Shown here piece after piece: positions 17,926 through 26,196 of a stretch of DNA of 26,335 bases; the stretch's first letter is position 1; the number at the start of each line of letters is the position of its first letter. The notes below the pieces were generated by a model that saw only the letters and a list, made by a program, of their open reading frames with translations, did no database searches and was not told the origin of the DNA. This DNA comes from a virus. The translations under genes were made by a program, and so were the position numbers. Location of the stretch: IMG/VR virus record IMGVR_UViG_3300036760_000874, positions 1 to 26,335 of that record. One strand, given 5' to 3'.

Positions 17926-19362
17926 GTGGGCCTCTGGCACGATCTTCGAACCGCGCGCAAGCGTGCCGATGACCTCGAGTCGCGGTACTCCCTCGATCAG
18001 TGGGTCGCCGAATACTTCACGTTCGCCGGCAACACCTACGGGTTCATCCCGCGGCAGACGATCAGCGGCAACACCGAGCCGATCATCAACAACTTCGTCG
18101 GGATCGTGCAGGGCGCGCTCAAGGGCAACGGCGTCGTGTTCGCGTGCATGGTCGTTCGCCAGATGCTCTTCACCGAGGCGAGGTTCCAGTTCCAGCGGAT
18201 GAAGGACGGCCGGCCCGGCGATCTGTTCGGCACGCCGGAGCTCGCGATCCTCGAGACCCCGTGGCCCACGGGCACGACCGGCGATCTCCTGGCGCGCATG
18301 GAGCAGGACTCGAGCCTCGCCGGCAACGCATTCGTTCGGCGCGCCGGCTCGCTGCTCGAGCGCTTGCGGCCGGACTGGACGACGATCGTGATGGGATCGC
18401 AGAAGCCCGATGCGGAGCTTTGGGATCTCGGGACCGAGATCATCGGCTACATCTACCAGCCCGGCGGTCCGACCGGAGGCCGTCAACCGATCTCGCTCAC
18501 CGCCGAGGAGGTGGCGCATTACGCGCCGTTGCCGGATCCCGTCTCGCCCTACCGCGGGATGAGCTGGCTGCAGCCGGTCATCAACGAGATCCAAGGCGAT
18601 ACCGCCGCGATCGCGCATAAGCAGTCGTTCTTCGACAACGGCGCGACGATCAATCAGGCGATCGTGCTCGATCCGAGCGTGCCAAAGGAGATGTTCGAGT
18701 TCTACCGCGATAACTTCCGCAAGGAGCACGAGGGGCCGATGAACGCCTACAAGACGCTCTTCCTCGGTGGGGGAGCGGACATGAAGGCGATCGGCGCGAA
18801 CTTCCTGGAGATGGACTTCAAGGCGGTCCAGGGCGCCTCCGAGACCCGGATCTGCGCTGCCGCGAACCTGCACCCGACGATCGTCGGTCTGTCGGAGGGT
18901 CTGCAAGGATCCTCGCTCAACGCCGGCAACTTCGGCGCGGCTCGTCGACTCACCGCCGACAAGTGTCTTCGTCCGCTCTGGCGGAACGTGTCGGGCTCGC
19001 TCGCCCACATCATCAACGTGCCCGGCGGTTCCCGTCTGTGGTACGACCCGCGAGACATCGCGTTCCTGCAGGAAGACGCGAAGGATGACGCCGACATCCG
19101 CGCGGTCGAGGCGACGTCGATGAAGACGCTCATCGATGCCGGCTTCAAGGCCGAGACGGTGATCGAAGCGATCACCTCGGGCGATATGACCAAGCTCGTG
19201 CACACGGGTCTGTTTTCCGTGCAGCTGCAGGCGCCCGGCTCGACCAAGATGCCGACGGGCGAAGCGCCGGGTGAGACACCGGTCGCCGGCGGCTCTGCTC
19301 CGGTCGATGCCCCAGCTGTGCCGCCCACGAACGGAAAGCCGCCGGCGAAGACTCCGGCGTGA
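17926..19362 (+). CDS. Portal protein (HK97 type)
   Basis: 478 residues from GTG 17926. Features include an N-terminal helical start, the F-A-C-M-V-V-R-Q-M-L-F-T-E-A core (close to the conserved A-x-x-x-x-x-x-I-A pattern of HK97 portals), P-Y-R-G-M-S-W-L-Q-P, N-G-A-T-I-N-Q-A, and H-P-T-I-V-G-L at the crown/clip boundary. The last ~50 residues (P-T-G-E-A-P-G-E-T) are disordered. It forms the dodecameric ring at the vertex through which DNA enters. It is followed by the protease-capsid gene with GTGA overlap, as expected. Confidence 0.9.
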   Translation: MGLWHDLRTARKRADDLESRYSLDQWVAEYFTFAGNTYGFIPRQTISGNTEPIINNFVGIVQGALKGNGVVFACMVVRQMLFTEARFQFQRMKDGRPGDLFGTPELAILETPWPTGTTGDLLARMEQDSSLAGNAFVRRAGSLLERLRPDWTTIVMGSQKPDAELWDLGTEIIGYIYQPGGPTGGRQPISLTAEEVAHYAPLPDPVSPYRGMSWLQPVINEIQGDTAAIAHKQSFFDNGATINQAIVLDPSVPKEMFEFYRDNFRKEHEGPMNAYKTLFLGGGADMKAIGANFLEMDFKAVQGASETRICAAANLHPTIVGLSEGLQGSSLNAGNFGAARRLTADKCLRPLWRNVSGSLAHIINVPGGSRLWYDPRDIAFLQEDAKDDADIRAVEATSMKTLIDAGFKAETVIEAITSGDMTKLVHTGLFSVQLQAPGSTKMPTGEAPGETPVAGGSAPVDAPAVPPTNGKPPAKTPA

Positions 19363-21659
19363 CGCGGCGGCCACCATCGGACCCGATGGAGCCCAAGCGA
19401 CTTCCGCGCGAGAACCTCGTCCGAGCGATCTCCCAGGGCTTCGAGTTCCGGGAGATGGGCGACGGCAAGCCGCCGCAGATCTTCGGGCACTTCGCGAGGT
19501 TCTCGGAGTGGACGCTGATCGATTCGATGTTCGAGGGCAGGTTCATGGAGCAGATCGCTCCCGGCGCCTTCAAAAAGACATTCTCTGAGGGACGCGACCG
19601 CTTCCGCATCCTGTTCCAGCACGGGCAGGACCCGACGGTCGGCGACAAGCCGCTCGCATCGGTGACCGATCTCCGCGAGGACGACGAGGGCGCGTACTAC
19701 GAGGGCGACATGCTCGACACCTCGTACAACCGCGACCTCCTGCCGGGTCTTCAGGCCGGCGTGTATGGGGCATCGTTCCGGTTCCGCGTGATGCGTGAGG
19801 ACCTGGTCGAAGAGCCTGGTACCTCCGATCACAACCCCGCTGGCCTTCCCGAGCGCACGATCAGGGAAGCAGAAGTGATGGAGGCGGGGCCTTGCACATT
19901 CCCAGCCTACGCAGGAGCGACCGCCTCGGTGCGATCGCTCACTGACGAGTTCCTGTTCAGCGGCTTCACGCGCGATCCGAAGCGGCTCGTGGAGCTGATC
20001 GACAACGTGCGGGCCAAGGACAAGCCCGCAGTCGCACCACCCGCACCCTCGATCGATCCGGCGCCGGCAGTGGCCACCCCGGATCCCGAGCGCCGCGACG
20101 TCCCGACTCCGAAAGAAGATCCGAAGGAGGACGACGTGCCACCCGAAATCGACCGATTCAAGAGCCTCGAGGAGCTCCACGCTCGACACGCGGAGATCCA
20201 GGCGAGGCTGCAAGAGATCAGCGCCGAGTGGGGCGTGCGGGCACTCGACGCCGATACCTCGGTCGAGTTCGACGAGCTCGCCGAAGAGCGGTCCGCGATC
20301 GAGGAACGGGTCGCCGACGTCGAGCAGCGGCTGAAGGTCGTCGGCGAGACCGCGAAGGACGAGCGGAAGGTCGAGCGCGAGCCGGTCGGCCGGTCCTTCC
20401 AGGCGCCCAAGTCGCGCCTGCCCGACAACATCCACGACATCGAGGCCTACCGCGTGAACGCGCGCACGGCCGCGGAGCACACAATGCTGCTCCGCGATGG
20501 CGCGATGCGTTCGGTGGAAGGCGCGGACTTCCCCACCGCTCGATCGCGTGAGGAAGTCCAGACGCACATCGAGCGCCTGCTCCGCACGATCGACGAGCCG
20601 AACGAGGCGCTCGGCAAGTCCGGCTCCGAGCTCGCGCGGCGGATCCTATTGACAGGCTCCGAGGTGTACCGCCGGGCGTTCGGCAAGTTCGTGCTGGGCC
20701 GTCCGATGTCGCCCGAAGAGCAGCGCGCTCTGTCGTTCACATCGGCAGCCACCGGCGCGGCCGCGGTGGTGTACCAGCTCGACCCGACGATCGTGCCGAC
20801 CTCGAACTCGAGCGTGAACCCGATGCGGGCGATCGCGCGAGTCGAGACGATCTCCGGGACGAACGAGTTCAAGTTCGTGACCTCCGGCGCGATCACCGCC
20901 GCATACGGCGCGGAGGCGACGGAGGCGACGGACAACGCCCCGACACTCGCCCAGCCCGACATCATCGTGGAGAAGGCGCAGGCATACGTGCCGTTCTCCA
21001 TCGAGATCGGGCAGGACTGGGGCGCGCTCGAGACGGAGATGGGGGCGCTCTTCCAAGACGCGAAGGACGACCTCGAGGCGACGAAGTTCCTGCTCGGTGC
21101 AGGCCACGGCTCGACCGAGCCGAAGGGGCTCATCGTCGGCGCCACGGCCACGACCACGGCAGGCGGCGTGGGAGCCTTCGCGATCGCGGACCTCTACAAG
21201 GCGTGGGAGGCGCTGCCTCCTCGGTTCCGTCCGCGCGCGCAGTGGATCGCGAACCTGTTCACGTTCGACAAGGTCCGCCAGTTCGACACGGCGGGCGGCT
21301 CGGGCGTGTGGCAGTGGAAGACGAGCCTGAACGGTGGGCAGCTCGCGGCCGATCTGGCCTCGAACCCGTCGCTCGGACGCGGAGGTTCCTCGGGCAACCT
21401 CGGGGCGCTCCTGCTCGGGCGTGAGACGAACGAGGCGACCGCGATGGTCGCTGCACTCACGACCGGCTCGAAGATCCTCGTGGTCGGCGACATGCGGTAC
21501 TTCGTGATCGTCGACCGGATCGGGATGGACGTGGAGGTTGTGCCGCTCGTCGTGGGCACGAACCACCGTCCGACCGGGCAGCGCGGGCTCTACGCCTACT
21601 GGCGGAACAGCTCCGAAGTCTTGTCGGCGGCCGCGTTCCAGGTCCTGGTCACCGGATAA
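19359..21659 (+). CDS. Prohead protease fused to major capsid protein
   Basis: 766 residues from GTG 19359 (ATG 19386 is an alternative). Residues ~30-190 are an HK97-type (U35/S78) maturation protease with H88 (F-Q-H-G-Q-D-P) and S139 (G-A-S-F-R-F-R) as catalytic pair. A Pro/Ala-rich linker (~215-258) follows. Residues ~262-340 form a charged coiled coil like the HK97 delta (scaffold) domain. Residues ~375-766 are an HK97-fold major capsid protein (P-x-Y-x-variants: A-V-V-Y-Q-L-D-P-T-I-V, E-S/T-G-type turn, F-S-I-E-I-G-Q-D-W-G, G-A-G-H-G-S-T-E-P-K-G-L). An internal start at 20136 would give the capsid alone. The fusion is intact with no frameshift. Confidence 0.9.
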   Translation: MTRRPPSDPMEPKRLPRENLVRAISQGFEFREMGDGKPPQIFGHFARFSEWTLIDSMFEGRFMEQIAPGAFKKTFSEGRDRFRILFQHGQDPTVGDKPLASVTDLREDDEGAYYEGDMLDTSYNRDLLPGLQAGVYGASFRFRVMREDLVEEPGTSDHNPAGLPERTIREAEVMEAGPCTFPAYAGATASVRSLTDEFLFSGFTRDPKRLVELIDNVRAKDKPAVAPPAPSIDPAPAVATPDPERRDVPTPKEDPKEDDVPPEIDRFKSLEELHARHAEIQARLQEISAEWGVRALDADTSVEFDELAEERSAIEERVADVEQRLKVVGETAKDERKVEREPVGRSFQAPKSRLPDNIHDIEAYRVNARTAAEHTMLLRDGAMRSVEGADFPTARSREEVQTHIERLLRTIDEPNEALGKSGSELARRILLTGSEVYRRAFGKFVLGRPMSPEEQRALSFTSAATGAAAVVYQLDPTIVPTSNSSVNPMRAIARVETISGTNEFKFVTSGAITAAYGAEATEATDNAPTLAQPDIIVEKAQAYVPFSIEIGQDWGALETEMGALFQDAKDDLEATKFLLGAGHGSTEPKGLIVGATATTTAGGVGAFAIADLYKAWEALPPRFRPRAQWIANLFTFDKVRQFDTAGGSGVWQWKTSLNGGQLAADLASNPSLGRGGSSGNLGALLLGRETNEATAMVAALTTGSKILVVGDMRYFVIVDRIGMDVEVVPLVVGTNHRPTGQRGLYAYWRNSSEVLSAAAFQVLVTG
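20124..20138 (+). promoter_or_regulatory. Internal ribosome site and in-frame start for a stand-alone capsid protein
   Basis: AAGGAGG (20124-20130), a perfect Shine-Dalgarno, lies 5 nt before an in-frame GTG at 20136 (codon 260 of the fusion). It is placed exactly between the protease linker and the scaffold-like coiled coil. The product would be 507 residues: delta-like domain plus capsid, the normal HK97 gp5 arrangement. Confidence 0.65.
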
Positions 21660-21723: not shown

Positions 21724-22167
21724 ATGGCAAACGAGATCTACATCGCGGTCGAATCCGGCTCCTGCGACATCAAGGGCGAGTCGTTCACCTTCGCACGCGG
21801 CGTCACTCGCGTCCGTGCCGGCCATCCGCTGCTCAAGGCGGTGCCCGATTACTTCGAGCCGATCGACGACCACGTCACCTTCGAGCATGGCAAGGCGAAG
21901 GCTGAGGCCGACGCGAAGAGGCACGAGGAGAATCTGGCCACCGAGGCGGAGGCGGCCGCCCGGAGCGACGTCGAGCAAGCGACGGCCGCTCCTGGCGAGA
22001 AGCGCAAGGGGCGTCGCGGAAAGAAGACCGCCACCGAGGCGGAGGAGGAAGAAGCTCCGGCAGAAGAGCCCGGCGGCGATGACGAGACTCCAGCATCCGA
22101 GGAGCCAGCCGACGGGCCGGCGCCGGAGCCAGGCGGCCTCACGATGGCCTCGCTGAAGGGCGAGTAA
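21724..22167 (+). CDS. Head-associated protein with acidic tail
   Basis: 147 residues from ATG 21724 with a strong GGAGGGAAGG upstream. Residues 1-55 are a small folded domain (I-Y-I-A-V-E-S-G-S-C-D-I-K-G-E-S-F-T-F-A-R-G-V-T-R-V-R-A-G-H-P-L-L-K), similar in place and length to head-tail or capsid-stabilising proteins after the capsid gene in actinophages. The rest is a low-complexity Glu/Ala/Pro tail, likely disordered, with a basic patch K-R-K-G-R-R-G-K-K. Function not established. Confidence 0.6.
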   Translation: MANEIYIAVESGSCDIKGESFTFARGVTRVRAGHPLLKAVPDYFEPIDDHVTFEHGKAKAEADAKRHEENLATEAEAAARSDVEQATAAPGEKRKGRRGKKTATEAEEEEAPAEEPGGDDETPASEEPADGPAPEPGGLTMASLKGE

Positions 22168-22542
22168 GTGGCGGTCCTCGACACCTACGGCGACGCGATC
22201 GCACGGCTGTCGAATGCCCAGACCGGCAACGGCGATAGCACGAACACGGCGACCCGCAGCACGCGCGAGACCGCGCGCGGCGGCGGCGTTGTCATCACCT
22301 CGGCGATCGGCGCGACCCCGACAGTGACGGTGAACATCATGGGCTCGGTCGACGGCGTGAACTTCTTCAACATCCCGTACGCCCTCGTCGCGACCCCCAG
22401 GACCTTCGTCGTCAGCGCGATCGTGATCACGACAGCAGTGACGACGACGTACCTGCTCCAGGAGAGCGTCTTCTGGCGCTACATCAAGCTCGTCTACTCG
22501 GCGAACACCAACGTGACCCTGACCGTGGACGTTGTCCTGTGA
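22168..22542 (+). CDS. Virion structural protein, beta-rich, unknown
   Basis: 124 residues from GTG 22168, directly after a TAA. It is almost all beta-strand with many Thr/Val (G-G-G-V-V-I-T-S-A-I-G-A-T-P-T-V-T-V-N, S-V-D-G-V-N-F-F-N-I-P, N-T-N-V-T-L-T-V-D-V-V-L). The S-x-D-G-x-x-F-F turn is common in phage Ig-like or head-decoration proteins. Position between capsid and the next small genes fits a decoration or head-tail connector role, but no specific family is recognised. Confidence 0.55.
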   Translation: MAVLDTYGDAIARLSNAQTGNGDSTNTATRSTRETARGGGVVITSAIGATPTVTVNIMGSVDGVNFFNIPYALVATPRTFVVSAIVITTAVTTTYLLQESVFWRYIKLVYSANTNVTLTVDVVL

Positions 22543-23322: not shown

Positions 23323-23382
23323 CCCCGAGCATCAGGCCCCTGATCGGGGATGCCCCCCGCGCCGCGTCAACGGCCGGGGGGC
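23323..23382 (+). other. Two hairpins before the DUF1996 genes
   Basis: First stem: CCCCG/CGGGG (23323-23327/23345-23349) enclosing ATCAGG/CCTGAT (23331-23336/23339-23344). Second: GCCCCCCG/CGGGGGGC (23352-23359/23375-23382). Both lie in the 89-bp gap before the secreted DUF1996 gene, so they may reduce read-through and set that pair apart. No T-run follows. Confidence 0.45.
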
Positions 23383-23406
23383 CGGCACAAGGAGATGACG
23401 CTCCTC

Positions 23407-25386
23407 ATGCGAGACAACCATCGGCTCTTCGGCTGGGCGAACCGTAGTCGGCAGTCTGTCCTACGGCGGATGACGGTCATCCTGGCGGCGCTCGTGATCG
23501 CGGTCGCATTCATGCCGGGGGCCGGCGCGCTTGAGACCGGGAACACTCACAACAAGTTCAGCATCGGGATCAACAACGCCGGAAGCAACCAGGGTGGCAT
23601 CCAGTTCAAGCGATTCCTCGACGGAGACGCCACGACTGCGACCGCCGGCTGGGTCTCAGGTGACCGGTGCAGCTACGGCGGTGCATACGCTTTCCTCGAG
23701 AACGATGGCGTTCTGATCGGTCGCGTGACGGTCGCAAGGATTAACTACGCCCAGATCGACGACAAGTACATGAGCGAGGGCGTCCGGTACTACAACGGCA
23801 CCGTGGCTCCTCCAGGGTCTCCACACGAGCTGAACGACTGTCCGGCCCCGGAGTTCTCCTACCCGACGCACAAGGGGTCTTTTCCCGCCGCTCCGGTCAT
23901 CACGCTCCACGGTCCATCGGAGACGTTCGACACCCAGAGCATCGCTTCCCCGACAGGCGCGGCGATGCCCCTGCGGTGGGACTGGGTCTCGACGACGGCA
24001 CACACCATCGCTCTCGTCGTCTACCAGGACACCCTCGGTGACAACGTGCAGATCCCCCTCGTAGCCCTCTACTTCGACGCGCTCGACCCATCCTTGACCT
24101 TCACCACGAACGCGCCGGCACCGCCCCCCCCGCCCCCAGCCGGCGGTGGTCTCTTCACGGTGTCTTGTCCGCTCGATCACATGGCATCCGACGATCCGAT
24201 CGTCTACCCCGGCCAGCCCGGAGCGGCGCACCTGCACCAGTTCTTCGGTGCGAAGAACGTCACCGCCTCCACGGTCGCCTCGAGCCTTCCGGGTTCGCCG
24301 ACGACGTGCGCCAACCTGGCCGACTCCGCGGGCTACTGGACGCCGGCGCTTGAGGGCCCCTCGCCCTCCAACGCTGTCGTGAACCCAGACAGCTTCACGG
24401 CGTACTACCTCGCTCCTGAGGGTCACACCGTGGCTCCGATCCCTGCGGGTCTCGTGATGATCTCCGACGCGGCATCTGCTCCCCTGGTCTCGGGGTGGTC
24501 GTGCTTCAACAACGTCACCGCGACCACGCCGCTGCCGCAGTCGTGCTCGGCGACCCAGACCAACGGGTTCCTGAAAGAGACGATCCACTTCCCGATGTTC
24601 TGGGACGGCGTGAACCTCGACTCGGCGAACCACCGTTCGCACCTGTCGTTCATCCAGGACGCGGGACATCCGGTCGAGATCGCGCATCTCGTCATCCAGG
24701 TCAGCTACACGCTGTTCTACGGCGCGACCTACCACCTTGCACCGAACCTCGACCAGACGATCCCGGCGGCCCACGCCGACTTCATGAACGGCTGGAACCA
24801 GGCCGCGCTCGCGAGCATGACGAACGTCTGCCTGAACGGTGGGCTCGACTGCAAGGGCGTCGTCCCGGCGGTCATCAACCCAACCGCGGCCGTCTCGGTG
24901 ACGCCGAGCTCCGGAACCGCTCCGCTCGCGGTGACGGCCGATGCATCAGCCTCGGTCGCAGGTTCCTCGCCGATCTCGACGTACACGTTCAATTTCGGTG
25001 ACGGCACCACGGTCGGGCCCCAGGCCGGTGCGACCGCTGCCCACACATACACGACGGCCAACATCTACACCGTGACGGTAACGGTCCTCGACACGGACGG
25101 CGGATCCGCGCAAGCGACCGCTGGGGTGACGGTGAACCCCGCCATCCCGCAATACGTGCTCCCGGCAGGTGGTCCGACGCGAGTGGACTGTCTCGCGGGC
25201 GGAACAGCGAAGGTGCCGATCGTCAACCAGCAGACCCCGACGTTCCTCGTGACCTGCCCGGGCGCGGGGTCGAACAACGGGAACGCTCAGATCCGCCTCG
25301 CCGACGGACAGTGGCAGCTCGTCTGCCCGCTCGGGGTGCTCCCGACCTACATCCAGACATCACCGCTGAAAGTGACCTGCCCATAG
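23407..25386 (+). CDS. Secreted DUF1996 protein with PKD domain
   Basis: 659 residues from ATG 23407 (AAGGAG 12 nt upstream; ATG 23395 and 23470 are alternatives). A long basic n-region then M-T-V-I-L-A-A-L-V-I-A-V-A-F forms a signal peptide ending A-G-A. Residues ~40-235 are a domain I do not recognise, followed by a PPPPPPP linker. Residues ~249-485 are DUF1996: D-D-P-I-V-Y-P-G-Q-P-G-A-A-H-L-H-Q-F-F-G, S-A-G-Y-W-T-P-A-L-E, H-F-P-M-F-W-D-G, H-A-D-F-M-N-G-W. Residues ~489-578 are a PKD repeat (N-F-G-D-G-T, H-T-Y). A Cys-containing tail closes it. DUF1996 occurs in secreted actinobacterial and fungal proteins; the conserved His and Asp suggest metal or sugar binding, unproven. Confidence 0.8.
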   Translation: MRDNHRLFGWANRSRQSVLRRMTVILAALVIAVAFMPGAGALETGNTHNKFSIGINNAGSNQGGIQFKRFLDGDATTATAGWVSGDRCSYGGAYAFLENDGVLIGRVTVARINYAQIDDKYMSEGVRYYNGTVAPPGSPHELNDCPAPEFSYPTHKGSFPAAPVITLHGPSETFDTQSIASPTGAAMPLRWDWVSTTAHTIALVVYQDTLGDNVQIPLVALYFDALDPSLTFTTNAPAPPPPPPAGGGLFTVSCPLDHMASDDPIVYPGQPGAAHLHQFFGAKNVTASTVASSLPGSPTTCANLADSAGYWTPALEGPSPSNAVVNPDSFTAYYLAPEGHTVAPIPAGLVMISDAASAPLVSGWSCFNNVTATTPLPQSCSATQTNGFLKETIHFPMFWDGVNLDSANHRSHLSFIQDAGHPVEIAHLVIQVSYTLFYGATYHLAPNLDQTIPAAHADFMNGWNQAALASMTNVCLNGGLDCKGVVPAVINPTAAVSVTPSSGTAPLAVTADASASVAGSSPISTYTFNFGDGTTVGPQAGATAAHTYTTANIYTVTVTVLDTDGGSAQATAGVTVNPAIPQYVLPAGGPTRVDCLAGGTAKVPIVNQQTPTFLVTCPGAGSNNGNAQIRLADGQWQLVCPLGVLPTYIQTSPLKVTCP

Positions 25387-25413: not shown

Positions 25414-26196
25414 ATGACAGAGTTCGGATCCCGCCCGATGCGCCCGCGCGGAGCCGTCATCGCGGCGCTCGCCTTGGTTCTCGTCCTGTTCCCGAGCTGG
25501 CCGGCGTCGGCATCGACGGTCACGGAGCACTGCGGATTCTCCCACTTCGCCAATGACGACCCGATCGTTCACCCCGGAGAACCGGGTGCCTCCCACCTGC
25601 ATCTGTTCGCCGGCAACCCCACGACCGATGCCTTCTCGACGCCTGATTCTCTCTTGGCAGCAGGGCAGACGACCTGCCACGACCAGCCGCTGGACTTCTC
25701 CGGCTACTGGGTCCCCGCCGTGTACGTCGACGGTGTGCAGACCTCGATCAAGCTCTCGCCCTACTGGAAGGACAACGGGGTCTCGGTCGTTGCCCCCCCG
25801 TTCGGCATGGAGTTCGTCGCGGGCCACGACTGGGGCGTCTCGGCGGTCTTCGCCTGCACGCCGGGAGGGAAGTACCTCACGCCTCCTGATTGCATGGGTC
25901 GCGGCGTGGTGAAGCTCCGCGTGTTCTTCCCCTCGTGCTGGGACGGCGTCGGAACCTCCCAAGCCGACTTCGCCTATCCCGCTGCCAAGGTCTGCCCCGA
26001 CGGCTTCGCCATTCGGATCCCCGAGCTGTTCCTCCAGGTCGACACCAAGATCGTCGACGGAACCGCTCGCACCTTCGCCCTCGCCTCCGGTGCGGATGGC
26101 TCGGTGAGCGACTACACCACGATGCACGCCGACTTCATGGACGCCTGGACGCCGGAGGCGATGCAGACACTGATTGACCGCCTGAACGCGGGGTAG
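25414..26196 (+). CDS. Secreted DUF1996 protein
   Basis: 260 residues from ATG 25414 (ATG 25438 is possible). Signal peptide residues ~1-34 (G-A-V-I-A-A-L-A-L-V-L-V-L-F, ending A-S-A-S). The rest is a single DUF1996 domain: D-D-P-I-V-H-P-G-E-P-G-A-S-H-L-H-L-F-A-G, S-G-Y-W-V-P-A-V-Y, F-F-P-S-C-W-D-G, H-A-D-F-M-D-A-W. It shares these signature points with the first DUF1996 protein but differs widely elsewhere and lacks the N-terminal and PKD domains, so it is a divergent relative rather than a recent duplicate. The 27-bp gap implies shared transcription. Surface or virion-associated role is inferred. Confidence 0.8.
   Translation: MTEFGSRPMRPRGAVIAALALVLVLFPSWPASASTVTEHCGFSHFANDDPIVHPGEPGASHLHLFAGNPTTDAFSTPDSLLAAGQTTCHDQPLDFSGYWVPAVYVDGVQTSIKLSPYWKDNGVSVVAPPFGMEFVAGHDWGVSAVFACTPGGKYLTPPDCMGRGVVKLRVFFPSCWDGVGTSQADFAYPAAKVCPDGFAIRIPELFLQVDTKIVDGTARTFALASGADGSVSDYTTMHADFMDAWTPEAMQTLIDRLNAG

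Follow-up and report, generated by a model that had tools for sequence, protein, structure and literature searches.

The open reading frame (ORF) at positions 19359 to 21659 of IMG/VR virus record IMGVR_UViG_3300036760_000874 joins a prohead maturation protease to an HK97-type capsid protein, raising the question of whether one protein is made from it or two. The annotation "major capsid and protease fusion protein", common in phage records, implies one protease per capsid subunit. The comparison of this ORF with its relatives makes it very probable that the ORF is a nested gene with two products, its internal start having been kept from an ancestral, separate capsid gene. The features of the locus are given below, with coordinates referring to the window, the whole stretch of 26,335 nucleotides that was analysed.

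19359 to 21659, plus strand: protease-linker-delta-capsid ORF, predicted long product of 766 aa, GTG start to stop
19359 to 19362, plus strand: GTGA in which the ORF start and the portal stop codon overlap, with no Shine-Dalgarno (SD)-like sequence (-2.1)
19476 to 19934, plus strand: Peptidase_S78 prohead protease domain, residues 40-192, profile match E 4.9e-20
20019 to 20153, plus strand: linker modelled with low confidence, residues 221-265 (mean pLDDT about 35)
20101 to 20170, plus strand: RNA segment from -35 to +35 at the internal start, more open than at any other in-frame start of the ORF, MFE -7.8
20124 to 20130, plus strand: internal Shine-Dalgarno AAGGAGG, duplex -12.2 kcal/mol, coding Lys-Glu-Asp
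20136 to 20138, plus strand: internal in-frame GTG start, codon 260, from the sequence and comparison with relatives
20136 to 21659, plus strand: predicted short product of 507 aa, delta domain plus HK97 capsid
20145 to 20357, plus strand: predicted coiled-coil delta (scaffold) domain, residues 263-333, AlphaFold
20811 to 21650, plus strand: Phage_capsid (HK97 fold) domain, residues 485-764, PF05065 E 2.8e-32

A portal gene lies directly 5' of the ORF according to profile search, and since the ORF start overlaps the portal stop codon and lacks an SD of its own, its translation is probably coupled to that of the portal. Within the protease domain, His88, Ser139, Glu170 and Glu175 are invariant in an alignment of 8 sequences, and PDB 9lw6 matches residues 269-763 of the window protein (E 3.1e-55). 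The AlphaFold model, built with 25 sequences as input and reaching a mean pLDDT of 67, folds residues 263-333 into a coiled-coil hairpin directly after the low-confidence linker. The internal AAGGAGG is followed by ACGAC and then by the GTG of codon 260, which is in frame and, in this model with its low-confidence linker, stands at the linker end, three residues ahead of the coiled coil. A sequence-only reading of the locus had placed protease, coiled coil and HK97 capsid in one frame, with AAGGAGG 5 nt before an in-frame GTG at the domain border; the coordinates, domain matches and AlphaFold model bear out the former, and the latter is exact, the border being the edge between linker and coiled coil. 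Further downstream, profile search returned no family match for the ORFs at 21724-22164 and 22168-22539, while the right end of the window carries two ORFs with DUF1996 domains (23350-25386, which also has PKD, and 25414-26196).

IMG/VR, GTDB genomes and phage records were scanned and yielded 103 loci with both domains, the genome-collection scan contributing only 7, with 20 loci fused (18 distinct) and 83 carrying separate protease and capsid genes. The capsid start lies within 75 nt of the protease stop in 78 of these 83, with overlaps of 12 nt (30 loci) and 18 nt (17 loci) being the commonest and the chosen start falling from -42 to +33 nt relative to that stop. The median SD energy of the separate-gene capsid starts, -9.3, is biased upward, as starts were picked by the best SD within range. 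The scans also recovered a triple fusion (L005:2881-5949), a single frame that encodes an S78 protease, an S49 (SppA-like) peptidase (PF01343 E 1.5e-33) and an HK97 capsid and carries GGAGG-8-ATG at the capsid start.

The start position expected in the fusions was predicted from the separate-gene capsids only, with a search range of 15 codons. An in-frame ATG or GTG occurs near the predicted position in 18 of 18 distinct fusions, lying no more than 6 codons away in 17. The summed SD energy of these 18 sites is -135.6, compared with -47.9 ± 11.3 for a positional null drawn from other windows of the same fusion ORFs and -89.9 ± 9.5 for synonymous shuffles, with 0 of 1000 trials reaching the observed value in either case. 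Five fusions are individually significant against synonymous shuffles (L016, which is REQ1; L017, which is Jflix2; L018, L072 and L080); the p value is non-significant for most single fusions, the signal emerging once they are summed, and fusions that are related count as only partly independent. In absolute terms the site is weak in three (L062 at -3.1, L019 at -4.2 and L018 at -5.2). RNA at the fusion starts is open, averaging the 6.8th percentile of ORF positions, with an openness exceeding that of synonymous shuffles (z +4.3). The earlier proposal that an internal start frees a delta-plus-capsid protein is thus well supported at the level of sequence by the 18 fusions and the SD nulls, and it withstood the refuting test set for it in advance, conservation of the internal site in relatives with the same fusion, the start being present in all 18 and its SD weak in three.

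The same reading had treated the internal start as a solution added to the stoichiometry problem of a pure fusion, and here the comparison reverses the order, a homologous start being already present in relatives with separate genes. The likeliest origin of the internal site, given its presence in these relatives, is the start of the ancestral capsid gene, retained when both genes entered one frame. A tree of 87 capsid rows requires 10 switches of layout between fused and separate, of which strongly supported branches force at least 6, and the window groups with three separate-gene loci (L031, L033 and L035; SH-aLRT 99). The protease of several separate relatives ends in K-E-x-P-x-W-x-(L/I)-stop, with the AAG GAG codons serving as SD of the capsid gene. 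The corresponding residues in the window are K-E-D-D-V, and the distance from motif to start is 12 nt, as against 14 nt in L033. A loss of two bases would be enough to join the frames, with sequence divergence precluding proof. In four relatives (L022, L038, L045 and L091) protease and capsid share a frame and are split by a stop codon only, representing a possible intermediate between the separate and fused layouts. One family would have seen overlapping genes turn into nested ones several times.

On this basis, ribosomes entering at GTG 19359 would produce the 766-aa protease-linker-delta-capsid protein, while initiation at the strong internal AAGGAGG-5-GTG at 20136 would produce the 507-aa delta-capsid protein, which is probably the main product, with the long protein in the minority. 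The ancestral capsid gene would have overlapped the end of the protease gene, with its start at what is now the internal site, and a small change within the overlap may have brought the capsid into the protease frame with that start retained. The long form probably enters the prohead by its delta-capsid part, bringing the protease along.

The strongest competing explanation accepts that the internal start continues to yield the capsid protein and holds that the long form only supplies protease, the fusion being free of cost and coming and going by neutral frame drift. It is a serious contender, if held at somewhat less than even confidence, and its likelihood overlaps that of the two-product reading, the internal start being common to both and the difference concerning the purpose of the fusion only. 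The roughly 10 switches on the capsid tree, the four relatives divided by a stop codon alone, and the retention of a protease without capsid tail in separate relatives are all in keeping with drift. Conversely, clades that stay fused (L016-L019 with L112; L055, L062 and L072; and 83 of 83 loci of the AM-like family) hint that the fusion is kept.

A pure polyprotein, in which only the 766-aa protein is made, every capsid subunit begins fused and the protease cleaves itself during maturation, is quite improbable. The single open frame, the conserved protease residues and the annotation of such genes as single products are compatible with it, but it leaves unaccounted for the in-frame start at the predicted place in every distinct fusion, with SD strength above both nulls and open RNA at the same starts, as well as the delta-capsid gene with a homologous start in separate-gene relatives.

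The two-product reading must also be weighed against a chance SD, since lysine-, glutamate- and aspartate-rich coding in a charged linker can yield functionless GAAGGAGG-like strings. AAGGAGG is unique on the plus strand of the whole window, and the SD of codon 260 is the strongest among 46 in-frame ATG, GTG and TTG codons (-12.2, with the next at -6.6). Nevertheless, motif and start are retained in 44% of 5000 synonymous-codon shuffles over the ORF, and the SD energy is no better than these shuffles lead one to expect (p 0.24); the motif is cheap given the protein, because it spells K-E-D-D-V in common codons. The SD motif alone was accordingly dropped as proof of an internal start, being weak evidence by itself, and the case is carried by the comparison with relatives. 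The position of the window site is less easily obtained (positional p 0.002). RNA folding provides a second signal, with an MFE of -7.8 from -35 to +35 of codon 260 versus -19.5 at the in-frame start ranked second for openness. Against 3000 synonymous shuffles, openness gives p 0.001 at this span and p 0.056, 0.059 and 0.21 at three others, and with one of four spans significant the openness of the window alone is suggestive, short of conclusive. Across the fusions, most individual synonymous p values would suit a chance origin, yet the position agrees with the capsid start of separate relatives in 17 of 18 and the summed synonymous null is exceeded (0/1000), leaving chance with scant probability.

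Least probable of all is an assembly or sequencing error merging two truly separate genes, which the metagenomic origin of the record and the separate genes of the window's nearest relatives might suggest, but which was dropped because the other two frames run open for 196 and 413 nt past the junction before a stop, compared with -42 to +33 nt in separate relatives, so that one indel fails to restore the usual layout, and because the isolated phages REQ1, Jflix2, Madraxi and Shagrat carry the same fusion.

Internal starts recur beyond the relatives of the window. All 83 loci of the AM-like family are fused, and in 69 of them the internal start with the best SD falls in the stretch separating protease from capsid, with 25.7 expected from length. 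A conserved N[VLIMA]F[DE] motif is present in 57 of 60 representatives, and all 57 have an ATG or GTG no more than 8 codons before it. These starts have a median SD energy of -9.3, with 91% at or below -6, and the family as a whole departs from the synonymous null with z -3.5 to -3.6. Single-phage synonymous tests in these other fusions are mostly non-significant, and for this reason it is chiefly position and recurrence that support the wider claim. In AM-like loci (L026, L115-L194), the codons for Glu-Gly-Gly or comparable residues that precede a conserved MxxN[VL]F[DE] form GAAGGAGG-like SDs, and the protein sequence of this family may have been shaped by the internal ribosome site.

Several fusions carry more than one such site. 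Arthrobacter phage Circum has internal sites at codons 165 and 242, a second upstream site occurring in several AM-like fusions. The S78-capsid fusion of Lactobacillus phage Lv-1 (L213:2357-4204) has two strong internal SD-ATG sites (AAAGGAGG) at codons 184 and 299, whose location at two domain borders suggests three nested products. The Lactococcus 1706 fusion has an internal start at codon 171, and unrelated Arthrobacter and Microbacterium fusions also have internal starts at domain borders. Lactobacillus ATCC 8014-B2, initially taken as a fusion, proved to have separate genes. It appears rather more probable than its converse that phage protease-capsid fusions are mostly nested genes that carry one or two internal starts where domains meet and yield the full fusion, a scaffold-capsid protein and sometimes the capsid alone, and that fused and separate layouts interchange easily, with the capsid start surviving every frame change.

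The consequences reach many records, as the Circum gene by itself has matches in 244 phage records and a hidden start of this kind is found again in many "fusion" genes annotated in databases as encoding a single protein. If such genes make free delta-capsid protein internally, the stoichiometry puzzle vanishes, the short product becomes the proper basis for annotation and structural work, and the fusion amounts to a natural tethering experiment for the entry of the maturation protease into the prohead.

Protease-(scaffold)-capsid fusion genes are known from actinobacteriophage clusters AM, AU, AN, EE, EL and CF and from RRH1, and the passages available from the papers concerned describe them as single proteins and leave an internal start unmentioned (PMC5513430, PMC7302621, PMC13313380); one of them also mentions the lambda scaffold-protease fusion (PMC5513430). 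For EpicDab gp9, a Gordonia study points out an ATG ahead of the protease and capsid domains, in discussing a holin-like N-terminal portion (PMC9671378). Like the window gene, the actinophage fusions place an S78-type protease and an HK97 capsid in one frame after the portal, and the closest annotated relatives of that gene are the CF phages REQ1, Jflix2 and Shagrat and the related Madraxi, at 35-39% identity (38.7% to REQ1 and 36.5% to Jflix2); unlike them, the window falls in a clade in which its nearest neighbours have separate genes. A search of the open-licence literature, with subscription journals outside its range, found no published internal start in protease-capsid fusions. Protease-capsid fusions and nested protease genes with a scaffold as short product are therefore known, while internal starts in protease-capsid fusions, of which no published mention was found, are apparently new.

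In phage lambda, the head protease gene C contains the nested in-frame gene Nu3, whose product is started internally, and the window resembles it at the sequence level in having an in-frame internal start with a ribosome site inside a protease ORF. The short products differ, Nu3 being a scaffold with the capsid protein E encoded separately, whereas the predicted short product of the window contains the capsid domain. Herpesvirus UL26 likewise fuses a protease to the assembly protein, the assembly protein's own short form, UL26.5, being abundant. That form is a scaffold made from its own transcript without an internal ribosome site, in contrast to the predicted capsid-bearing short form and internal ribosome site of the window. 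In HK97, as predicted for the window, an S78 protease acts on a capsid protein with an N-terminal delta domain, which in HK97 comprises 103 residues (PMC10275583). The window protein shares the HK97 fold with delta, as indicated by its PF05065 match, its PDB 9lw6 match and the helices at residues 263-333, with the difference that gp4 and gp5 of HK97 are two separate genes, whereas in the window protease and capsid occupy one frame.
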